Shown here piece by piece: positions 25,994-42,862 of a stretch of DNA of 64,000 nucleotides (position 1 is the stretch's first letter; every line of letters starts with the position of its first letter). The DNA lies in assembly GCF_006265115.1 (NCBI RefSeq), contig NZ_SMDR01000004.1:1-64000 (forward strand), in the 5' to 3' direction. A model generated the notes under the pieces. It worked only from the letters and a program-made list of their open reading frames with translations. It did no database searches and was not told the origin of the DNA. Made by a program: the position numbers and the translations under genes. Source of the DNA: Arenimonas terrae (GTDB lineage: Bacteria; Pseudomonadota; Gammaproteobacteria; Xanthomonadales; Xanthomonadaceae).

Positions 25994-26045
25994 TTGAAAA
26001 AACTTCACGCTGGCTATTGACATCGTTTTTTGGCCGTGTTTCTCT
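25994..26045 (+). promoter_or_regulatory. Candidate promoter region of the ilv leader
   Basis: Two -35-like hexamers occur in this relatively AT-rich stretch: TTGAAA at 25994 (with TATTGA at 26015) and a perfect TTGACA at 26017-26022 whose -10 region (26040-26045) is poor. One of these probably drives the leader and ilvD. The rest of the 296-nt gap to katE, 25756-25993, holds nothing else I can support. Confidence 0.35.
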
Positions 26046-26051
26046 CGACCC

Positions 26052-26177
26052 ATGCCTTCCGCAGCCGCCACCGCCCAGACCCTGAAGCCGACCCTCCCGG
26101 CCGGTCTCTTCGTCGCGTCCGTCGCGCTGCTTACCGTCGTCGTCGTCCTTATTACCACCCTCACCGGTGCGGGATAG
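26052..26177 (+). CDS. ilvL: ilv operon leader peptide
   Basis: 41-codon open frame that ends 108 nt before ilvD and is too short for routine gene calling. Residues 24-38 read VALLTVVVVLITTLT: codons 29-34 are four GTC in a row, then CTT and ATT, with more Leu and Thr on both sides. Such a run of branched-chain codons just before an intrinsic hairpin is the hallmark of a transcription attenuation leader, as in the enterobacterial ilvGMEDA leader. No strong ribosome site is visible before its ATG. It most likely has no function as a protein; its translation senses charged Val, Leu, Ile (and perhaps Thr) tRNA. Confidence 0.85.
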   Translation: MPSAAATAQTLKPTLPAGLFVASVALLTVVVVLITTLTGAG

Positions 26178-26254
26178 ACGAGCGCGTAGAAACCTAGAGC
26201 CAACGCCTCGAAACTAGAACCCCGCACCGGAAACGGTGCGGGGTTTCTCGTTTC
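26163..26254 (+). promoter_or_regulatory. Transcription attenuator: antiterminator and terminator arms
   Basis: Three arms are visible. Arm 2 at 26164-26173 (CCGGTGCGGG) lies over the last leader codons. Arm 3 at 26218-26229 pairs with arm 4 at 26234-26245 as a perfect 12-bp stem with a GAAA loop, followed by TTTCTCGTTT, which is the terminator. Arm 2 is also perfectly complementary to 26221-26230, that is to arm 3, giving a 10-bp antiterminator. A ribosome stalled at the Val/Leu/Ile codons (26136-26153) leaves arm 2 free for arm 3; a ribosome at the stop codon (26175) covers arm 2 and lets the terminator form. Confidence 0.85.
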
Positions 26255-26285
26255 GGGGCCTGGAAAACCACCAGGACCCGATGCC

Positions 26286-28025
26286 GTGAACAGCGACGCG
26301 ATCAAGACAGGCCCCGCCCGCGCCCCCGCCCGCGCGATGCTGCGCGCCACCGGGCTGGACGACGCCGCCATCGCAAAACCGCTCATCGCGGTGGTGCACA
26401 CCTGGTCCGACGTCTCGCCCTGCAACCTGACGCTGCGCGACCTGGCGCAGCACGCGCGCGCCGGCATCCAGGCCGCGGGCGGCACGCCGGTCGAGTTCAA
26501 CACCATCGCGATCACCGACGGCATCGCGATGGGCAGCGAAGGCATGCGCGCCTCGCTGGCCTCGCGCGAAACCATCGCCGACTCGATCGAACTGGCCGTC
26601 AGCGGCCACTGCCTGGACGGCGTGGTGGTGCTGGTGGGCTGCGACAAGACCATTCCCGCCGCCGCGATGGCGCTGGCGCGCCTGGACCTGCCCAGCGCCA
26701 TCCTCTACGGCGGCACGATCATGCCGGGGCAGTGCAAGGGCAGGAAACTCACGGTGCAGGATGTGTTCGAAGCGGTCGGCGCCCATTCCGCCGGCACGCT
26801 CGACGACGCCGGCCTGGCCGAGGTCGAACGCCACGCCTGCCCCGGCGCCGGCGCCTGCGGCGGCCAGTTCACCGCCAATACGATGGCGATGGTGCTGACC
26901 TTCCTGGGCCTGTCGCCGCTGGGCCTGAACGACATCCCGGCGCTGCATCCCGACAAGGCCGCGGCCGCCTTCGCCTGCGGCGAGCTGGTGATGCAGCGGC
27001 ATCGCGACCAGGGCCCCACGCCATCGACGATCCTGACGCGGGCGGCATTCACCAATGCCGCCCGCGCCGTTTCCGCCACGGCCGGGTCCACCAATGCCGC
27101 CCTGCACCTGCTGGCGATCGCGCACGAGGCCGGCGTCGAGTTCACGCTGGAGGATTTCGAGCAGGCCGCGCGCACGCCGGTCATCGCCGACCTCAAGCCG
27201 GGCGGTCGTTACACCGCCGCCGAGATGTTCGAGATGGGCGGCAGCGCCCTGATCGCCAACGCGTTGCGTGCGGCCGGCCTGTTGCTGGATGGGGCGACAG
27301 TGACCGGCCGCACGCTGTTCACCGAACTGGACGCGGTGCCGACGCCCGCGCCGCAGGACTGCGTGTTCCCCGTGTCCCGGCCGCTGAAACCGCGCGGTGG
27401 CTATTCGATCCTCTACGGCGACCTGGCACCCGAGGGCTGCATCGTCAAGCTCGCCGGCCACGGCCGCGACCACTTCGAAGGCCCGGCCCGCGTGTTCGAT
27501 TCCGAAGACGCCGCTTTCGCCGCCGTGCAGTCGCGCGCAATCCACGCCGGCGATGTGGTGGTGATCCGCTTCGAGGGCCCGGCCGGTGGCCCCGGCATGC
27601 GCGAAATGCTGGCGGTGACCGCGGCCCTGGTCGGCCAGGGCCTGGGCAACGACGTCGCGCTGGTGACCGACGGCCGCTTTTCCGGTGCCACCCACGGCTT
27701 CATGGTCGGCCACGTCTCGCCCGAAGCCGCGCGCGGCGGCCCGATCGCGCGCCTGCGCGAGGGCGACCGCGTGCGCATCGACGTCGCCACGCGCCGCATC
27801 GATGTCGACGCCGACCTGACGGCCCGCGGGCCCGCGCGCATCGCGCCGCGCGTCGCCGGCGGCGCGCTCGCCAAGTACGCGCGCGATGTCGGCTCGGCGT
27901 CGCTCGGCGCCGTCACCAGCCCGGCGCCGGTACGAAAGCCCACGCGCATCGCCGCGCAGCTGATCGAAGCGGGGAAAGGAGCTCAGGTTCACGTTCCGGA
28001 CCCGGCCGTCGCGGAGACCCCCTGA
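26286..28025 (+). CDS. ilvD: Dihydroxy-acid dehydratase IlvD
   Basis: 579-residue iron-sulfur dehydratase that makes the 2-keto acids of valine and isoleucine. Three candidate cluster cysteines are seen in [28 protein letters not shown] and [16 protein letters not shown], as in [2Fe-2S]-type enzymes. The C-terminal signature [20 protein letters not shown] is present. The start is GTG at 26286 with AGGA 9 nt upstream; the ATG at 26281 meets a stop after two codons. It is the first structural gene after the attenuator. The last ~17 codons (from AGKGAQVHV) run into an imperfect REP-like inverted repeat and are probably not native. Confidence 0.95.
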
Positions 28026-28060
28026 CCCTGCTTCGAGAAATGGACCTGACCCCCCTTTCC
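27973..28060. repeat. Degenerate REP-like inverted repeat at ilvD 3' end
   Basis: Arms 27973-27995 and 28038-28060 are imperfect inverted repeats (about 18 of 24 positions match with gaps). The right arm reads AAATGGACCTGACCCCCC, a variant of the AAATNNACTCTGACCCC arm found at 32010 and 42691. The left arm is partly decayed (GCTCAGGTTCACGTT). It spans the ilvD stop codon and the ilvD-ilvC gap. Confidence 0.5.
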
Positions 28061-28096
28061 CTTCACGCCTGACCTCCAACCCAAGGACCCGCCGCC

Positions 28097-29140
28097 ATGA
28101 CCCAGTCCCATGCCAAGACCCCGAACCCACCCCGCCCGCGGATCGCCGTCGTCGGCTACGGCAGCCAGGGCCGCGCGCATGCGCTGAACCTGCGTGAATC
28201 CGGTTTCGAGGTCACGGTCGGCCTGCGTCCCGGCGGTCCGACCGAGGCCAAGGCGCAGGCCGATGGCTTCACCGTGAAGACGCCGGCGGAAGCCGTCGCC
28301 GGCGCGGAGCTGGTCGCGGTGCTGACGCCGGACATGGTGCAGCCGCGGCTGTATCGCGAAGCCATCGAGCCCTACCTCGCCAAGGGCGCCTGCCTGTTGT
28401 TCGCCCACGGGTTCAACGTGCACTACGGGCAGATCGCGCCCCGCGCGGACCTGGACGTCGTGCTCGTCGCCCCGAAAGGCCCGGGTGCGCTGGTGCGGCG
28501 CGAGTTTGAAATTGGCCGCGGCGTGCCCTGCGTCTACGCCGTGCAGCAGGACACCAGCGGCCGCGCCGAACAGCTGGCCCTGGCCTACGCGGCCGGCCTC
28601 GGCGGCGCGCGCGCCAACGTGATCAAGACCACCTTCAAGGAAGAGACCGAGACCGACCTGTTCGGCGAGCAGGCGGTGCTGTGCGGCGGCGCGACCAAGC
28701 TGGTCCAGGCCGGCTGGGAAACCCTGGTCGAGGCCGGCTACCAGCCGGAGGTCGCGTATTACGAGTGTCTGCACGAACTCAAGCTGATCGTCGACCTGCT
28801 GTACGAAGGCGGCATCACCCGCATGCACGAGTTCATCAGCGAAACCGCGCAGTACGGCGACCTCACCCGCGGGCCCTACGTCATCGACGCGCACGCCCGC
28901 GCGCAGATGAAGAAGATCCTGGCCGAAATCCAGGACGGCACTTTCGCGCGCCAGTGGATCGCCGAATACGCCGCCGGCAACCCGAACTACAAGGCCCTGA
29001 AGCAGGCCGACCTCGACCACCCGATCGAAGCCACCGGCCGCAAGCTGCGCGCGGCGATGAGCTGGATCGGCGCCGACGGCAACGTGCAGCCCGCGCGGCC
29101 CGCCGCGCCCCGACCCACGGCGGAGGCCGCCGCCGCATGA
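28097..29140 (+). CDS. ilvC: Ketol-acid reductoisomerase IlvC (class I)
   Basis: 347-residue NADPH-dependent enzyme that isomerises and reduces acetolactate or acetohydroxybutyrate. The Rossmann loop is [19 protein letters not shown] (about residues 17-35). Metal-binding acids lie in [18 protein letters not shown] and [19 protein letters not shown]. Length fits the short class I form rather than the 491-residue enterobacterial class II. An AAGGA site lies about 10 nt upstream. The stop overlaps the ilvG start (ATGA). Confidence 0.96.
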
Positions 29141-30852
29141 AAACCCGACAAAACGGCGCGCAGCTGCTGGCGCGATGCCTCGAGGCCGAAGGCACCGACC
29201 GCCTGTTCGGCTATCCCGGCGGCGCGATCATGCCCTTCTACGACGCCCTCACCGGCTCGAAACTCAGGCACATCCTGGTGCGGCACGAACAAGGCGCGGC
29301 CCTGGCCGCGAACGGCTACGCCCGCGCCAGCGGCCGCGTCGGTGTCTGCATCGCCACGTCCGGCCCAGGCGCGTCCAACCTGGTGACCGGCATCGCCGAC
29401 GCCTTCCTCGACTCGGCGCCGATGGTGGTGATCACCGGCCAGGTCTCGACCGCGCTGATGGGCACCGACGCCTTCCAGGAACTGGACGTGTTCGGCATGA
29501 CCCTGCCGATCGTCAAGCACAGCTTCCTGCTGCGTCACGTCGACGACCTGCCCGAGGTCGTGCACGAAGCCTTCCGCATCGCCCGCGAAGGCCGCCCCGG
29601 CCCCGTGCTGATCGACCTGCCCAAGGACGTGCAGCTGGCCGACGCCTCGCATCTTTCCCCGAAGATTCCCGCGGCGGCGGTGCCTCCCCCGCCGCCGTCG
29701 CGGGAATCCCTTGCGGCAGCGATCGCCGCGATCGAAGCGGCCGAACGCCCGGTGATCTACGGCGGCGGCGGCATCGCGCTGGCGGAAGCGGTGAATGCCT
29801 TCCGCGGTTTCGTCGATTCCAGCGGCATCCCGACCGTGCTGACCCTGCGCGGCCTGGGCGCCCTGCCCACCGGCCACCCGCTGCTGCTGGGCATGCTGGG
29901 CATGCACGGCTGCCGCGCCGCCAACATGGCCGTGCAGGAGGCCGACGTGCTGATCGTGGTCGGCGCGCGTTTCGACGACCGCGCCACCGGCAAGCTGGCC
30001 GAGTTCGCACCGCGCGCGCGCATCGTGCACCTGGATGCCGACCGCCGCGAAATCGGCAAACTGCGCCAGGCCGATGTCGCCGTGCCCGGCGATGTCGCCA
30101 CCGCGCTGAAGTCGCTGACCGGCGTGCACCCGGATTGTGGCGACTGGCGCCGGCACTGCCTGGAGCAGGGCGAACGCCACGCCGCGCGTTACGACGCCCC
30201 GGGCCGCGACGTATACGCCCCGGCCCTGCTGCGCCGCCTGTCCGAGATCGCGCCGCGAGATGCGATCGTCGCCTGCGATGTCGGCCAGCACCAGATGTGG
30301 GTCGCGCAGCACTGGAAGTTCAGCCACCCGCGCAACCACCTGACCAGCGGCGCGCTGGGCACGATGGGCTTCGGCCTGCCGGCGGCGATCGGCGCGCAGT
30401 TCGCCTGCCCCAACCGCACGGTGGTGCTGGTCAGCGGCGACGGCAGTTTCATGATGAACCTGCAGGAGCTGGCGACGGTCGCGCGCTGCAAGCTGCCGAT
30501 CAAGATGGTGCTGCTCGACAACCAGGCCCTTGGCATGGTGCGGCAGTGGCAGGAGCTGTTCTTCGACCGCAACTACAGCGAAGTCGACCTGAGCGACAAC
30601 CCGGACTTCGCGGCCCTGGCGCGCGTGTTCGGCATTCCCGCGCTGCAGGTCGACCAGCGGGCCGACGTGGAGGATGCCCTGCACGCGCTGATGTCCACGC
30701 CGGGTCCGGCCTTCCTGCATGTCGCCATCGACGCCCGCAGCAATGTCTGGCCCCTGGTGCCGCCCAACCACAGCAACGCGACGATGCTGGAGGGCGAAGC
30801 CGCCGCCGTGGCGTCGCCCGCGCCGGAGCCCGCCCATGCGCTACCGGCTTGA
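29137..30852 (+). CDS. ilvG: Acetolactate synthase large subunit
   Basis: 571-residue ThDP/FAD enzyme that condenses pyruvate with pyruvate or 2-ketobutyrate. The catalytic Glu is at about E51 in [18 protein letters not shown], the FAD-domain segment is [16 protein letters not shown], and the ThDP motif is [13 protein letters not shown] followed by [18 protein letters not shown] at 29137 overlaps the ilvC stop. The last 17 nt overlap the small-subunit gene, so the subunits are translationally coupled, which fits a large-small complex. Confidence 0.96.
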
Positions 30853-31072
30853 ACTGGTGCTGCGCCCGGCCGAAGGCGCCCTGCTGCGGGTGCTCGGCAC
30901 CGCCGAGCGCCGCGGCTTCACGCCGCTCGCCATCGCCGGCGAGCAGCCGCCCGACGGCGGCGACTGGCGGGTGCAGCTGACCGTGCGCGGCCAGCGCCCA
31001 CCCGAGCCCCTGCAGCGCCAGATCGAACAGTTGCACGACTGCCTTTCCGTGGAGATCGCCCCATGTCCCTGA
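30836..31072 (+). CDS. ilvM: Acetolactate synthase small subunit, IlvM-like
   Basis: 78-residue protein made of one ACT-like domain ([20 protein letters not shown], then WRVQLTVRG and LHDCLSVEIA). It matches the short IlvM-type regulatory subunit in length and position right after the large subunit. The start overlaps ilvG by 17 nt and the end overlaps ilvE by 10 nt. IlvM-type subunits usually do not confer strong valine inhibition. Confidence 0.85.
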   Translation: MRYRLELVLRPAEGALLRVLGTAERRGFTPLAIAGEQPPDGGDWRVQLTVRGQRPPEPLQRQIEQLHDCLSVEIAPCP

Positions 31073-31923
31073 ATCTCTGGTTCGACGGCCGCATCGGCCC
31101 GCAGGACCAACTGGCCGCCCCGCTCACCACCCACGCCATGCATTACGGCACGGCGGTGTTCGAAGGCATCCGCAGCTACGCCACGCCCGACGGCGCGGCC
31201 GTGTTCCGCCTGCCCGAGCACCTGGAGCGCATGCGCAAGGGCGCCGAGGCTTTCGGCGCCAGGTTCGACGTCGTCGAAGCGGCGGCGGCGGTGATCGCGG
31301 TGCTGCAGTCCAACCAGCACCGCGACGCCTATGTGCGGCCGCTGCTCTGGTACGGCACCGGCTCGCTGGGCCTGGACGTCGCGCCGCTGAGCCGGCACCT
31401 GATGGTGGCCTCGATGCCGTGGAAGCCGCACCTGGGCGACAAGCCCGTACGCCTGACCGTCTCGCCCTTCCGCCGCAACCGCGCCGAAGCGCTGCCGCCG
31501 CTCAAGCTCAGCGGCGCCTACGTCAACTCGATCCTGGCCAAGCGCGAGGCCGGCAGCCGCGGGTTCGACGATGCGCTGTTCATGGATGACGCGGGGTTCG
31601 TGGTCGAGTGCACCGGCGTCAACGTTTTCCTGGTCAAGGGCGGTCAAGTGGTCGCGGTCGAACACCCAGACGCATTGCCGGGCATCACCCGCGACACCAT
31701 CGTCGAACTGGCGGGTGCAGCGTCGCGGCCGGTCACGCTGGAGGAGCTGCTGGAGGCCGACGAGGTCTTCCTCACCGGCACCTCGGCCGAGGTGATGCCG
31801 GTGGCGGCGCTGGACCGCAGGGCCTACGGCGCCACGCCGGTCGCCAATGAACTGCGCGCCCGCTACCTGCGCGTCGTGCGCGGCGGCTCGCCGGCGCACA
31901 CGCACTGGCTGACGAGCGTATGA
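31063..31923 (+). CDS. ilvE: Branched-chain amino acid aminotransferase
   Basis: 286-residue fold-type IV PLP aminotransferase that performs the last step for Ile, Val and Leu. The start LWFDGRIGPQDQLAAPLTTH, the block HYGTAVFEGIRSYATPDG (about residues 27-44), the PLP Lys in LPPLKLSGAYVNSILAKREA, VECTGVNVFLVKGG, and LPGITRDTIVELA follow the family order. Length is slightly under E. coli IlvE (309). Placement between ilvM and ilvA supports the branched-chain role rather than the related D-amino acid or lyase members. Its stop overlaps ilvA as ATGA. Confidence 0.92.
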   Translation: MSLNLWFDGRIGPQDQLAAPLTTHAMHYGTAVFEGIRSYATPDGAAVFRLPEHLERMRKGAEAFGARFDVVEAAAAVIAVLQSNQHRDAYVRPLLWYGTGSLGLDVAPLSRHLMVASMPWKPHLGDKPVRLTVSPFRRNRAEALPPLKLSGAYVNSILAKREAGSRGFDDALFMDDAGFVVECTGVNVFLVKGGQVVAVEHPDALPGITRDTIVELAGAASRPVTLEELLEADEVFLTGTSAEVMPVAALDRRAYGATPVANELRARYLRVVRGGSPAHTHWLTSV

Positions 31924-33077
31924 CGCCCTCCAATCCGGGGTCAGAGTCGATTTATCTTCCGCGGCCGAGCGGGACGACAGCCTCGCGCCATCCCTCGCGG
32001 ACGGAAGTTAAATCGACTCTGACCCCGGATGTCGTCGGCGTCGCCGACGTCCTGGCCGCGCACGCGCGCCTGCGCCGCTACCTGCCGCCGACGCCGCTGC
32101 ATTACGCGGAGCGTTTCGGCACCTGGCTCAAGCTCGAGAACCTGCAGCGCACCGGCTCCTACAAGGTGCGCGGCGCATTGAACGCGCTGCTGGCCGCGCG
32201 CGAGCGCGGCGACCGCCGCCCGGTGATCGCCGCCTCGGCCGGCAACCACGCCCAGGGCCTGGCCTGGGCCGCGCACCGGCTGGGCATGCAGGCGATCACC
32301 GTGATGCCGCTCGGCGCGCCGGAAACCAAGATCGCCGGCGTCGCCCACTGGGGCGCCACGGTACGCATGCACGGCGCCAGCTTCGACGAGGCGCGCGCCT
32401 TCGCGCTGGAGCTGGCGGGGCTGCACGGCTATCGCTTCCTGTCCGCTTTCGATGATCCCGAGGTGATCGCCGGCCAGGGCACGGTCGGTCTCGAACTGGC
32501 AGCGCACGCGCCGGACGTGGTGATCGTGCCGATCGGCGGCGGCGGCCTGGCCGCCGGCGTCGCCCTGGCGCTCAAGTCGCAGGGCGTGCGCATCGTCGGC
32601 GCCCAGCCCGAGGGCGTGGACGCGATGGCGCGCGTGCTGCGCGGCGACGACAGCGCGCCGGTACCCGGCCCCACGCTGGCCGACGGCGTGCGCGTGCGCC
32701 ATCCGGGCCAGCTCACCCGCCGCCTGCTGGCCGGCCTGCTCGACGACCTGGTGATCGTGCGTGAAGCCGAGCTGCACGAAACCCTGGTGCGCCTGGCGCT
32801 GGAGGAACACGTGATCGCCGAAGGCGCCGGCGCGCTGGCCCTGGCGGCCGGGCGCCGCGTCGCCGGCCGCAACAAGTGCGCGGTGGTCTCCGGCGGAAAC
32901 ATCGACGCCGCCGTGCTCGCCGGCCTGCTCTCCGACGTGCGGCCACGCGCGCCGCGCAGGCCGCGCCGCCGCCAGCAGGCCAGGCCCCTGCCCGCCTCCC
33001 TTCCCACGGCGCCGGTCGTCCGGCTGCCGATCCCCGTTCTGGAACAAACCCCCTTGCTGCAGGAGTGCACGCCGTGA
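31920..33077 (+). CDS. ilvA: Threonine dehydratase without ACT domain, REP-encoded N-terminal extension
   Basis: 385-residue PLP enzyme that deaminates threonine to 2-ketobutyrate for isoleucine. The PLP lysine is K82 in [28 protein letters not shown] and [16 protein letters not shown] follow. There is no ACT-like regulatory domain; after about residue 342 the tail is Arg/Pro-rich ([16 protein letters not shown]). Residues 5-37 are encoded by a palindromic REP-like element at 31933-32030. No in-frame ATG, GTG or TTG exists between the REP and the catalytic core, so translation must start at the ATG at 31920, coupled to the ilvE stop, and read through the element. Confidence 0.9.
31933..32030. 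repeat. REP-like palindrome inserted in ilvA
   Basis: A perfect 22-bp inverted repeat (31933-31954 with 32009-32030) is extended after one mismatch by 6 more pairs, leaving a 40-nt loop. The outer core is ATCCGGGGTCAGAGTCGA. The same core, with a different inner part, forms the element at 42652-42709. Elements with this GGGGTCAG core are, in my knowledge, associated with RAYT-type transposases; no such gene is in this window. Confidence 0.9.
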
Positions 33078-34615
33078 CCACGGACCGCATCCGGATCTTC
33101 GACACCACCCTGCGCGACGGCGAACAATCGCCCGGCTGCAGTCTGCGTCCGGCCCAGAAGCTGGTGATGGCGCGCGCACTCGCCGAGCTCGGCGTGGACG
33201 TGATCGAGACCGGCTTCCCGGCCAGCTCGGCCAGCGACATGGAGGCGACCCGGCTGATCGCCGCCGAGATCCAGCGGCCGTCGCTGTGCGCGCTGTCGCG
33301 CTGTGCGCCCGGCGACATCGAGGCCGCCGCCAAGGCGCTGGAGAAGGCGCGCCGGCCGCGCATCCACGTCTTCATCTCGACCAGCCCGCTGCACCGCGAG
33401 CACAAGCTCGGCCTGAGCCGGCAGCAGGTGCTCGAGCGCGCCATCGAAGGCGTGCGGCTGGCGCGGCGCTACGTCGAGGACGTCGAGTTCTCGGCCGAGG
33501 ACGCGCTGCGCACCGAGGAGGACTTCCTGGTCGAGGTCTTCAGCGAGGCGATCGCCGCCGGTGCGCGCACCATCAACGTGCCCGACACCGTCGGCTACAC
33601 CACGCCCGAGGAGATCCGCGGCCTGTTCCAGCGCCTGATCGCCGGCGTGCGCGGCGCCGGGCAGGCGGTGTTCAGCGCGCACTGCCACGACGACCTGGGC
33701 CTGGCCGTGGCCAACTCGCTGGCCGCGATCGAGGGCGGCGCGCGCCAGGTCGAGTGCACCATCAACGGCATCGGCGAACGCGCCGGCAACGCCGCGCTGG
33801 AAGAGATCGTGATGGCGCTGAAGGTGCGCGGCGCGCGTTACGGCACCGGCACCGGCATCGACACCCGGGCGCTGCTGCCGGCCTCGCGCCTGCTGTCGCG
33901 GCTGACCGGCATGACCGTCCAGCGCAACAAGGCCGTGGTCGGCGCCAACGCCTTCGCGCACGAAGCCGGCATCCACCAGCACGGCATGCTGCGCAACCGC
34001 AATACCTACGAGATCATGCGGCCGGAAGACGTCGGCTGGCCGGCATCGCAGATGGTGCTGGGCCGGCACAGCGGCCGGCACGCAGTGAACGACCGGCTGC
34101 GGGCGCTGGGCTTCGTGCTCGAGGAGTTCGAGTTCGAGCGGGTCTTCGCCGCCTTCAAGAAGCTCTGCGACCACCAGCGCCTGGTGCGCGACGCCGACCT
34201 GCAGGTGCTGGTGACGGGCGACCCGGACGCGGCCGGCCGCGGCTACCGGCTGGCCGCACTGTCGGTCAGCGACAGCGGCAAGCGCGCCCGCGCCCACGTC
34301 GAACTCTCCGACCCCGAGGGCCACCTGGTCGCCGAGATCGCCGAAGCCGACGGCCCCGTCGCCGCGCTCTTCGAGGCCATGACCCGCGCCACCGGCGTGC
34401 CGATGCAGCTCGAGAGCTACCAGGTGCACAGCATCGGCATCGGCGCCGACGCCCGCGGCGAAGCCAGCCTGAGCGTGCGCTGCGAAGGCGCCGAGCACAC
34501 CGGCGTCGGCACCAGCCGCGACATCATCGAAGCCAGCGCCCTGGCCTGGCTCGACGTCGCCAACCGCATCCTGCGCCAGCGCGAAGCGCCGGCCACCTAC
34601 GCCGCCACTGCCTGA
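33074..34615 (+). CDS. leuA: 2-Isopropylmalate synthase LeuA
   Basis: 513-residue enzyme that starts leucine synthesis from 2-ketoisovalerate and acetyl-CoA. The TIM barrel shows [15 protein letters not shown] near residue 7, [13 protein letters not shown], and the metal-binding [16 protein letters not shown] near 200-215. The C-terminal LeuA dimer/leucine-binding domain is present ([20 protein letters not shown] and STGVGTS-like [19 protein letters not shown]), so leucine feedback is expected. The start is GTG overlapping the ilvA stop (GTGA), with AGGAG about 9 nt upstream. Confidence 0.96.
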
Positions 34616-34622
34616 GGATCCC

Positions 34623-36044
34623 ATGGCCCCGCCCAAGACCCTGCTCGACAAACTCTGGGACGCCCACGTGGTCGTACCCGAAACCGCCGACGCGCCCGCC
34701 GTGCTTTATGTCGACCTGCACCTGGTGCACGAGGTGACCTCGCCGCAGGCCTTCACCGAACTCGAGGCCCGCGGCCTGTCGCCGCGCCGGCCCGACCGCA
34801 CCAAGGCCACGCTCGACCATTCGACGCCGACCCTGCCCGCCGCCACCGACGGCCGCCTGCCCTATGCCAGCGCCCAGTCCGAGGCGCAGGTCGAGGCGCT
34901 GCGGCGCAACTGCGCGCGGCACGGCATCGAGCTGTTCGACCTGGGCGATGCCCGCCGCGGCATCGTGCACGTGGTCGCGCCCGAACTCGGCCTGACCCAG
35001 CCGGGCCAGACCATCGTCTGCGGCGACAGCCACACCAGCACCCACGGCGCGTTCGGCGCCCTGGCCTTCGGCATCGGCAGCAGCGAGGTCGGCCACGTGC
35101 TGGCCACCCAGTGCCTGCTGCAACGCAAGCCGCGCGCGCTGGCGATCACGATCGACGGAGAGCTCGGCCCCGGCGTCGGTGCCAAGGACGTGGTGCTGCA
35201 CGTGATCGGCCGCATCGGCGTCAACGGCGGCACCGGCCACGTCATCGAATTCCGCGGCTCCACCGTGCGGGCGATGTCGATGGAGCAGCGCATGACCCTG
35301 TGCAACATGGCGATCGAAGCCGGCGCGCGCGCCGGCCTGGTGGCGCCGGACGCGACCACGTTCGCCTGGCTGGCGAAAACGCCGCGCGCGCCGACCGGCG
35401 AGGCGCTGGACGAGGCGATCGCGCACTGGCGCACCCTGGCCAGCGATCCGGACGCGGCGTTCGACCAGGAAGTGCGCATCGACGCGCGCGGCATCCGCCC
35501 GACGGTGACCTGGGGTACGCACCCGGGCACCGCGCTGGCGGTGGACCAGCGCATTCCGGCGCCGGCCGACGGCGCCGAGACCAAGGCGCTGGCCTACATG
35601 CAGCTGCAGGCCGGCGCGCACATCGCCGGCACGCCGGTGGACGTGGTGTTCGTCGGATCCTGCACCAATGGCCGGCTGTCGGACCTGCGCGACGTCGCCC
35701 GGGTGCTCGACGGCCGCCGCGTGCATCCGCGCGTGCGCATGCTGGTGGTGCCGGGCTCCGAACAGGTCAAGCGCGAGGCCGAAGCCGAGGGCATTGACGT
35801 CATCGTGCGCGCCGCCGGCGCCGAGTGGCGCGAGCCGGGCTGTTCGATGTGCATCGCCATGAACGGCGACCTGGTGGCGCCCGGGCAGCTGGCGGTCAGC
35901 ACCAGCAACCGCAATTTCGAGGGCCGCCAGGGCCCCGGGGCCCGCACCCTGCTCGCCTCGCCGCTGACCGCCGCCGCCTCGGCGGTGGCCGGCGTCGTGG
36001 CCGACGTGCGCGAACTCGAGACCGCCGCCACGGAGGCCGCATGA
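34623..36044 (+). CDS. leuC: Isopropylmalate isomerase large subunit LeuC
   Basis: 473-residue aconitase-family subunit. The start [12 protein letters not shown], the block [20 protein letters not shown] near residues 135-155, and the iron-sulfur cysteines in [13 protein letters not shown] and [11 protein letters not shown] are present, as is [20 protein letters not shown]. Length is standard. It lies 7 nt after leuA and its stop overlaps leuD (ATGA). Confidence 0.97.
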
Positions 36045-36640
36045 GCACCGCCATCCGCCACATCCGCTCCGCCAGCGTCGTGCTGGCGCAGGCCAACATC
36101 GACACCGACCGGATCATTCCCGCGCGTTTCCTGTCCACGACCACGCGCACGGGGCTGGGGCAGCATGCCTTCGCCGACTGGCGCAAGCGCAGCGACGGCA
36201 GCGTGGACCCGGACTTCGCCTTGAACCGTCCGCAGAACGCCGGCCGCTCGATCCTGATCGCGGGGCGCAACTTCGGCTGCGGCAGCTCCCGCGAGCACGC
36301 GCCCTGGGCCCTGGTGGACGCCGGCCTGCGCGCCGTGGTCAGCAGCCAGGTCGCCGACATCTTCCGCGCCAACGCGCTCAAGAACGGCCTGGTGCCGGTG
36401 GTGCTGGACGAAGGCACCGTGCAGGACCTGATGCGGCGCCCCGACGACGTCCTGGAGATCGACATCGCCGCCGGCGAACTGCGCACACCCGCCGGCGAAG
36501 CGCACCGTTTCGAACTCGACGCCTTCGCCCGCACCTGCCTGCTCGAGGGCGTGGACGAACTGGGCTACCTGCTCGCCCGCAGCCCCGACATCACCCGCTA
36601 CGAAACCCGACAGACTCCGGAGTTCCGCCATGGCTTCTGA
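36041..36640 (+). CDS. leuD: Isopropylmalate isomerase small subunit LeuD
   Basis: 199-residue swivel-domain partner of LeuC. The motifs [14 protein letters not shown] (about residues 18-31), [20 protein letters not shown] and [19 protein letters not shown] are typical. ATG at 36041 overlaps the leuC stop by 4 nt; the end overlaps leuB by 11 nt. Confidence 0.96.
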
Positions 36641-37718
36641 AATCGTCGTCCTGCCCGGTGACGGCATCGGTCCCGAAGTCACCCGCGCGGCGGTGGCCAC
36701 CCTGCAGGCGGTCGGCCGCCGCTACGGCCACGACTTCCGCTTCCAGACCCACCTGATCGGCGGTGCGGCGATCGATGCTACCGGCGAGCCGCTGCCGGCC
36801 GCGACGCTGGCCGCCTGCCGCCAGGCCGATGCGATCCTGCTCGGTGCGGTCGGCGGGCCGAAGTGGTCGGACCCGTCCGCGACCGTGCGGCCGGAGCAGG
36901 GCCTGCTGGCGCTGCGCCAGGCGCTGGGCCTGTACGCCAACCTGCGGCCGGTGCGCCCGCATCCGGTCGCGCTGGGCGCCTCGCCGGTGAAACCGCACCT
37001 GCTCGCCGGCGTCGACCTGCTGGTGGTGCGCGAGCTCACCGGCGGCCTGTACTTCGGCGAGAAGCAGCGCCACGCCGACCGCGCCAGCGACCTGTGCGAA
37101 TACAGCGTGCTGGAGATCGAGCGCGTGCTGCGCCGCGCCTTCGGCTTCGCGCGCGCGCGCCGCGGAAAACTGGTGTCGGTGGACAAGGCGAACGTGCTGG
37201 AGACGTCGCGGCTGTGGCGCGAGACCGCCACCCGGATCGGCCGCGAGGAGTACCCCGACGTCGCGCTCGACCACCAGCTGGTGGACTCGATGGCCATGCA
37301 CCTGATCGCCCGCCCGCGCGACTTCGACGTGGTGGTGACCGAAAACCTGTTCGGCGACATCCTCACCGACGAGGCCTCGCTGCTGGCCGGTTCGCTGGGC
37401 CTGCTGCCCTCGGCCTCGCTGGGCGACGGCCGGCGCGGCCTGTACGAACCCATCCACGGCTCCGCCCCGGACATCGCCGGCCGCGGCATCGCCAACCCCT
37501 TCGCGACCATGCTCAGCGCCGCCCTGCTGCTGCGGCATTCGCTGGGGCTGGAGGAAGAGGCGCTGGCGGTCGAACTGGCGGTCGCGGCTGCGCTGGACAG
37601 CGGCGCGCTGACGGCGGACCTGGCCGCACCCGGGCAGGCGGTGTCGACGCAGGCGGCCGCGGACGCGGTGCTGGAACGCCTCGAGCCGCGCTGCCACGTC
37701 GCCGAACTGCGCGACTGA
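36630..37718 (+). CDS. leuB: 3-Isopropylmalate dehydrogenase LeuB
   Basis: 362-residue NAD-dependent oxidative decarboxylase. Recognisable are [16 protein letters not shown] at the start, [10 protein letters not shown] near residue 70, [14 protein letters not shown], the metal/active-site block [20 protein letters not shown] and [18 protein letters not shown] near residues 270-290. It is the last gene of the ilv-leu operon. A GC hairpin follows 8 nt after the stop. Confidence 0.97.
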
Positions 37719-40710: not shown

Positions 40711-42645
<1,935 letters not shown>

Positions 42646-42651
42646 TCAGAT

Positions 42652-42709
42652 TCCGGGGTCAGAGTGCATTTATCTGATGGCGGCCAGATAAATGCACTCT
42701 GACCCCGGA
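42652..42709. repeat. REP-like palindrome in the thiC leader
   Basis: A perfect 25-bp inverted repeat (42652-42676 with 42685-42709) with an 8-nt loop. The outer core TCCGGGGTCAGAG is shared with the element in ilvA; the inner part here is TGCATTTATCTG. It lies 6 nt from the riboswitch aptamer and 58 nt before the thiC start, so it is transcribed as a strong hairpin in the thiC leader. Confidence 0.93.
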
Positions 42710-42715
42710 TTACGT

Positions 42716-42800
42716 CGCGAAGCTCCCTACGCCGGTACCAACCGGATCAGGTTCGAAGGGTATTTCTCAGCCCGCTTCCCGCCGGGCACCCCCGCTTCCG
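42716..42800 (-). promoter_or_regulatory. TPP riboswitch aptamer (THI element)
   Basis: On the minus strand the conserved parts run in order: GGGGGTGCC, CTGAGA followed by AATACCC, GAACCTGATCCGGTT, GTACCGGCGTAGGGA. A GAAGC/GCTTC pair closes P1 (42794-42798 with 42719-42723). It lies upstream of thiC and should lower expression when thiamine pyrophosphate is plentiful. Confidence 0.95.
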
Positions 42801-42862
42801 GTCGCCATTCTTCCACGGCCGGGCTCCGGGAGCCAGAAGCGGGCCGGCCCGGCCGTCGCGGC

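Follow-up and report, generated by a model that had tools for sequence, protein, structure and literature searches.

The window, which is the whole 64,000-nucleotide stretch of Arenimonas terrae DNA that was analysed, carries on its + strand ten genes of branched-chain amino acid biosynthesis (26286-37718), arranged as a joint ilv and leu cluster behind a short leader reading frame, and an intrinsic terminator lies between this frame and the first structural gene, ilvD (Table 1). Such a joint cluster behind the leader had been read in an earlier note on this DNA, and the profile matches bear it out. The match of ilvD lies above the cut-off of NF002068 and below that of TIGR00110. Upstream of the leader, on the opposite strand, a catalase HPII gene has been recognised (928.6 bits, with a cut-off of 1102). 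Elsewhere in the window, an ordinary TPP riboswitch (42707-42803, - strand, 72.8 bits) precedes thiC (40711-42594, same strand).

Table 1. Features of the leader region and of the gene cluster behind it (positions of the window).
Feature	Position	Strand	Basis or remark
-35 element TTGACA	26017..26022	+	35 nt 5' of leader ATG; exact TTGACA in 83/88 copies
Presumed -10 element TTCTCT	26040..26045	+	poor match; missed by simple scan
Predicted transcription start, A of leader ATG (±1-2 nt)	26052	+	suggested by the distance from the -35 element and by C at -1
Leader peptide ORF, 41 codons, MPSAAATAQTLKPTLPAGLFVASVALLTVVVVLITTLTGAG	26052..26177	+	ATG 26052, TAG 26175-26177; frame kept in 88/88 copies
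Control codons GTC GTC GTC GTC CTT ATT	26136..26153	+	GTC×4 26136-26147, CTT 26148-26150, ATT 26151-26153
Region 1, protector strand	26140..26149	+	predicted to pair with about 26170-26184; without covariation support
Region 2, antiterminator strand, CCGGTGCGGG	26164..26173	+	overlaps end of leader ORF; covariation
Region 3, left terminator arm, common to the antiterminator	26218..26230	+	pairing; covariation
Region 4, right terminator arm	26234..26245	+	pairing; covariation
Interrupted U tract TTTCTCGTTT	26244..26253	+	sequence reading
ilvD, GTG start, first structural gene	26286..28025	+	profile match
ilvC	28097..29140	+	profile match
ilvG, acetolactate synthase 2 large subunit, start approximate	29137..30852	+	profile match
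ilvM-like small subunit, start approximate	30845..31072	+	32.3 bits, below curated cut-off of 68
ilvE	31063..31923	+	264 bits, just below curated cut-off of 279
Threonine dehydratase, ilvA/tdcB type	31920..33077	+	profile match
leuA, start approximate	33080..34615	+	profile match
leuC	34623..36044	+	profile match
leuD, start approximate	36041..36640	+	profile match
leuB	36630..37718	+	profile match

The anatomy of the leader agrees to the base with what the earlier note had described, that is, a 41-codon frame with the run GTC×4-CTT-ATT, followed by a 12-bp stem (AACCCCGCACCG, 26218-26229, against CGGTGCGGGGTT, 26234-26245) closed by a GAAA loop (26230-26233). The perfect pairing it had claimed between region 2 and the left terminator arm is also found, region 2 being the exact reverse complement of 26221-26230 (10/10), with the first base of the loop as the last paired base. 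A T-rich tail, the remaining element of that description, is present, but the tract is broken, and a simple terminator and promoter scan of the window lists neither this + strand terminator nor the leader promoter. In the window copy, both the U tract and the -10 box are weak.

The RNA from 26040 to 26262 folds better than its shuffled versions (z -4.1; 1/200 shuffles equally good). The predicted energy of the terminator is -27.2, and that of the antiterminator window, before the right arm exists, is -31.5. With the right arm in place, every computed case has the terminator as its more stable fold, and so the choice between antiterminator and terminator must be kinetic. Other attenuators likewise choose their fold kinetically.

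A DNA search with a 291-base stretch of the window in 60 genomes of the family, Lysobacteraceae (Xanthomonadaceae), gave 30 loci, 27 of which are leaders by inspection (L026, L027 and L030 are not), and this query alone reached a best E value of 1.9e-23 for leaders in other genomes of the family. The leaders found in this way precede ilvD or ilvC, which speaks against a chance resemblance. A model, R1, was built from 25 aligned leaders, that of the window included and with L013 (a near copy of L012) and L028 omitted. In the genome of origin, R1 has a single strong full-length match (126.9 bits); it is followed by the terminator of this same copy read on the opposite strand (28.0 bits), and other full-length alignments reach at most 16.6 bits. 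In the order Lysobacterales, R1 matches 266/397 genomes at E <= 1e-9 (254/342 of those of good quality, and 69/98 genera), and no match is obtained in 131/397 at this threshold. At E <= 0.01 the number rises to 343/397, a count that is too loose because terminators alone can reach such scores.

For closer reading, 88 loci were assembled, 27 from the DNA search and 61 from R1 matches (7 + 6 + 8 + 40) picked for spread. All 88 match R1 by construction, since 25 of them trained the model and the others were found with it or with the DNA query, and one place is present twice (L029 = L201), so that the set covers 87 places and counts over 88 double that place. A frame with a run of Val, Leu and Ile codons occurs in 88/88 loci, with a script that favoured such frames, and the aligned Leu codon stands in register with the leader frame in 88/88.

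The codons that could respond to amino acid supply have been delimited with a ribosome mask, in which the ribosome is assumed to shield the RNA as far as 11 nt beyond the first nucleotide of the codon in its A site. A ribosome at any of the codons of GTC×4, CTT or ATT leaves 10/10 antiterminator pairs free, which marks Val, Leu and Ile as the control codons, as had been suggested for these three amino acids. Across the control runs of the 88 leaders, Leu is written as CTC in 54%, CTT in 44% and CTG in 1.6% of cases (n=310), Ile as ATT in 96% (n=125), and Val as GTA in 58% and GTC in 34% (n=217). The ten genes of the window's cluster use CTG for 78% of their Leu residues (n=387), ATC for 95% of Ile (n=152), and GTG, GTC and GTA for 55%, 40% and 2% of Val (n=310). 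The leader control codons nearly mirror-invert the usage of the window's cluster in this comparison, which sets leaders of many genomes against genes of one genome; in the leader of the window itself, Val is encoded by GTC, which is a common codon. That attenuators use rarely used, supply-sensitive codons has been argued in the available part of a published work (PMC1183508), and the codon bias of these leaders offers a natural data set for this idea.

The sequence CUC-GUA-CUU also pairs with region 2, so that pairing may contribute to the choice of codons. It could even be that the unusual codons (CTC/CTT, GTA, ATT) serve pairing and not tRNA sensitivity, with CUC-GUA-CUU acting as strand 1 to region 2 (AGGUGCGGG). 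The pairing tests used 86 distinct rows and 500 shuffles, on sequences that are related and with kinship uncorrected, by which such tests are inflated. Between regions 1 and 2, 88.6% of cells pair and the predicted duplexes are strong, but neither this proportion nor the covariation exceeds that of the shuffles, and the duplexes are only weakly better than re-dealt ones (8/500). Moreover, the window has GTC×4 instead of this sequence, and ATT, the most extreme codon (96%), falls in the loop. A purely structural role of these codons is thus a possibility to be taken seriously, although we think it does not provide the better account of them.

Upstream of the leader, exact TTGACA stands 35-39 nt ahead of an in-frame ATG in 83 of the 88 copies (3 at 35, 34 at 36, 35 at 37, 10 at 38 and 1 at 39), the remaining five have a 5-of-6 match at about the same distance, and elsewhere in the loci, excluding the 250 nt before leaders, the hexamer occurs 7 times in 336,218 positions. 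The base at -1 of the leader ATG is C in 81-83/88, depending on the ATG chosen in copies with more than one. The 16-nt spacer separating the two promoter boxes has a mean identity of 31% between copies, and the -10 box is only weakly conserved. A constant distance from TTGACA to ATG across an unconserved spacer is what would be expected if transcription has to begin on the AUG. Among 60 named loci from a pattern scan, which overlap partly with the genomes of the 88-locus set, 57 share a spacing of 36-38 nt, with C at -1 in 46/57, and the other three have longer leaders with the same promoter-ATG spacing.

Taking this geometry into account, the leader message is predicted to be leaderless, its transcription starting at the A of the ATG or 1-2 nt from it. 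A start at the ATG means that the message would lack a 5' untranslated region and that the ribosome would load on its very end. In 43/88 copies the peptide begins with MTQR, MLQR or MSQR, encoded by a U-poor, C/A-rich stretch after the AUG that may aid a ribosome starting on a bare 5' end (in the window the peptide begins with MPSA). A 5-base Shine-Dalgarno core ahead of the leader ATG is found in 0/88 copies. This is little evidence, because such a core occurs within 70 nt 3' of the terminator, where the structural gene starts, in only 15/88.

The same scarcity gives room to an ordinary attenuator with a 5' untranslated region, in which TTGACA would belong to a promoter but the real start, or a second promoter, would lie further upstream and a weak ribosome binding site would have gone unrecognised. 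The -10 box of the window is poor, as well as weakly conserved elsewhere, and the ilvL leader of Escherichia coli has a promoter-like TTGTAC 69 nt before its ATG. Such an arrangement would not account for exact TTGACA at 35-39 nt in 83/88 copies despite a spacer of 31% identity, nor for the C at -1, even if the latter falls to 46/57 in the named loci. We therefore regard a conventional 5' end as unlikely and a leaderless one as the better reading of this promoter.

The earlier note had added threonine as a possible fourth amino acid sensed alongside Val, Leu and Ile. In the window, ATT is followed by ACC, a ribosome at the first ACC leaves 8/10 pairs free, and a threonine dehydratase is encoded within the cluster. 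At the second ACC five pairs are left, and none (0/10) at the Leu codon CTC 26160, which is too far downstream for control, or at the stop codon. Many copies have ACC behind ATT, but others carry AGC, ATT, CGC, GGC or TCC in its place, and its replacement by Ser, Ile, Arg or Gly codons makes sensing of threonine improbable; this part of the suggestion is not supported, and control by Val, Leu and Ile is retained.

The alignment across relatives that the earlier note had proposed as a check of the two alternative pairings gives covariation in both. The outcome by which that note would have been refuted in relatives, a frame or pairing that is not conserved, did not occur. In the antiterminator (regions 2 and 3), 93.4% of cells are paired against 90.5% in the shuffles (0/500 as high), 24 cells are changed on both sides against 7.0 (reached by 0/500), and the covariation score is 0.108 against 0.055 (0/500 as high). 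For 2:3, neither the number of pairs nor that of pair types is exceptional (333 and 108 of 500 shuffles), and the covariation comes almost wholly from one pair, columns 73/163, which appears as U-A, C-G and A-U. In three loci, all of one genus (L107, L173 and L176, genus g61), an extra base in region 2 is matched by an extra base in region 3. Region 2 forms a stabler duplex with the region 3 of its own species than it does when the partners are re-dealt (-18.18 against -16.97; 0/500). In the terminator (regions 3 and 4), 95.0% of cells are paired, with 43 changed on both sides against 12.9 (0/500). Region 2 is read in three reading frames (74, 11 and 3 of the 88), and the keeping of its RNA sequence across them indicates that it is the RNA, and not the peptide, that is conserved there.

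It might be supposed that the hairpin is a constitutive terminator, or the 3' end of a small RNA, preceded by a fortuitous frame and free of control by leader translation, as terminators of the form CCCCGC...GCGGGG score alone and most of the 27 genomes of the class matched at 1e-5 match only the 3' part of R1, but this is very improbable in view of the Val/Leu/Ile run in 88/88 frames, the 2:3 covariation, the lack of a standard pair at column 163 in 9/86 rows for the antiterminator against 26/86 for the terminator, and the position of the leader ahead of branched-chain amino acid operons.

We consider, with a probability of roughly 87%, that 26017-26253 is a ribosome-mediated transcription attenuator of the ilvDCGMEA-leuACDB cluster, leaderless start included, which agrees with the attenuator proposed in the earlier note and extends it to the 5' end. 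RNA polymerase would start at the A of the leader ATG, or within 1-2 nt of it. When charged Val, Leu or Ile tRNA is short, the ribosome would wait at GTC×4-CTT-ATT and leave region 2 free to pair with region 3 (26221-26230), by which the terminator would be blocked and the cluster transcribed. With an ample supply, the ribosome would reach the stop codon and cover region 2, and the 3:4 terminator would end the transcript near 26250. If the message does begin with the start codon, translation of the leader would need ribosomes able to start on a bare 5' AUG, and the switch could be sensitive to the condition of the ribosome pool besides the charging of the tRNAs of three amino acids.

The first gene behind the leader, as found with ten query proteins, is ilvD in 44 of the 88 loci, ilvC in 22, leuA in 20 and an ilvM-like gene in 2, a branched-chain amino acid gene of the query set being first in 88/88. 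The position ahead of ilvD, which the earlier note had set apart from the arrangement in E. coli, does differ from it; these loci show at least three arrangements, of which this one is the most frequent. In 20 longer loci, the ilv and leu genes are mostly together behind the leader, in varying order. Within 13 kb behind the leader, no leu genes are found in L101 and L104, no ilvD or ilvE match in L091 and L092, and no match at all in L093. Three genomes of family f3 (G097, G123 and G129) have two or three R1 matches each at E <= 1e-9, and the places read in G123 and G097 (L175 and L190) precede an ilvM-like small-subunit gene.

Within the genus of the window, the leader is present in 7/21 genomes, and most of the rest are also without ilvD. 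A near-full ilvD relative (>=74% identity) is found in 5/21, the window's own included and one of them split in two, and all five have the leader; 1/21 has a piece of ilvD at a contig end, without the leader; 2/21 have the leader and then leuA, with no ilvD match (G328 being of the leuA-first type); and in 13/21 both a close ilvD and the leader are missing. Synthesis of branched-chain amino acids has possibly been lost in much of this genus, some of whose genomes are incomplete. The ilvD query was used as a control for the presence of the pathway only inside the genus. At E <= 1e-120 it matches 199/397 genomes of the order and was rejected as an order-wide control, because the ilvC-first genomes listed are unmatched at this threshold, presumably because another ilvD is used there.

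From these loci, the leader seems to persist while the first gene behind it changes among ilvD, ilvC and leuA. We lean, with some reserve, towards the view that the order keeps a leaderless branched-chain amino acid attenuator as a rigid 5' module of promoter, AUG and switch, which would stay constant while ilvD, ilvC and leuA are exchanged behind it. A regulatory leader could in this way outlast the reshuffling of its operon.

The leader belongs to a known kind of enteric attenuator, as R1 aligns with E. coli ilvL from end to end (positions 1-147 of 147; 39.6 bits, against 10.7 bits for the terminator on the other strand). As in the leader of the window, the frame of ilvL, which precedes ilvGMEDA, is rich in Val and Ile codons and runs into a region-2 core (CCGTGCGGGG), and its terminator begins with CCCCGCACC. 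Unlike the window, E. coli has its promoter-like hexamer (read by eye and unlisted by the script) at a distance that would give a 5' untranslated region, and the order of its genes within the stretch compared is ilvX-G-M-E-D. The enteric attenuator would have a close relative in much of Lysobacterales, where translation seemingly starts in a different way.

Searches of Rfam at gathering and relaxed thresholds give no leader family above its cut-off for the window's leader. RF02744 gives 12.5 bits there (cut-off 88), for the terminator part only. This family, named Rev39 as a 5' UTR of soft-rot bacteria, matches E. coli ilvL with an E value of 5.2e-44, and so seems to represent the enteric ilv leader, filed under a different name. 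A paper by Vitreschak et al. of 2004, in FEMS Microbiol Lett 234:357-370, is said to have predicted ilv attenuators in gammaproteobacteria, reportedly including Xanthomonas, with an ilvC-first operon.

Leaderless leaders of attenuators are known elsewhere. According to PMC11857589, the ilv leader of the ilvBNC operon of Corynebacterium glutamicum is leaderless, and CUU and GUA serve as its control codons; it differs in belonging to an actinobacterium, in the ilvBNC operon itself and in another hairpin layout. In Sinorhizobium meliloti, PMC7298713 places the 5' end of the trpL attenuator RNA (rnTrpL/peTrpL) at the leader ATG, in this case for tryptophan, in an alphaproteobacterium and with trans functions reported for the products. 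A leader with Ile and Val codons ahead of ilv genes is given for ilvBN of Caulobacter in PMC4117421, for another operon and another bacterial class. In the portions available of the literature searched, mostly open-access, we noticed no description of an ilv attenuator in Xanthomonas or other Lysobacterales, of a leaderless start of this kind in Gammaproteobacteria or of the exchange of the first gene, and the accessible part of a study of Xanthomonas start sites (PMC3744752) mentions neither ilv nor leaderless messages. What would go beyond the earlier reading is the leaderless geometry, the exchange of the first gene and the inverted usage of control codons, all of them as judged from sequence comparison.

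In the class as a whole, R1 matches 27/274 genomes at 1e-5, three of which are from the window's own family. Of the remaining 24, G500, G682, G549 and G574 match along the entire model and the rest only its 3' part. The locus in G682 (L210), outside the order, has a leader at about 1483-1569 (MVNVLFNTRVIIRIIVVVISPTLCGALR) with a Shine-Dalgarno-like AGGAG before it, ahead of a branched-chain amino acid transporter (PF05525). A similar leader in G500 (L209; MTFLKQLVTRTLTLLVVIIITSAGCGSSA), also outside the order, precedes an MFS transporter that could be one for branched-chain amino acids. The full-length matches in G549 (L213) and G574 (L231), likewise outside the order, are weaker and precede an ilvC-like (34%) and an ilvG-like (44%) gene, respectively.

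A second full-length R1 match in genome G029 (L233) has a leader at 1464-1562 (MSSFLATAVNNNNRNNLRANSRARPMRDCDQS), a terminator and then asnB from 1709, whose product is recognised as asparagine synthase B (766.6 bits, cut-off 499). Stretches of this type are found in 25/99 genomes of the family at E <= 1e-4, and the window's own genome has none. In 11 of the 12 loci of this type that were read (L237-L248) there is an Asn-rich frame. The frame carries NNNNRNN and ARPMRDCD, and its CCGATGCGGG is able to pair with CCCGCATCGG, the left arm of the terminator; no TTGACA stands at the leaderless distance in these leaders. Judging from these features, the asnB leader (L233, L237-L248) is likely a candidate asparagine attenuator.
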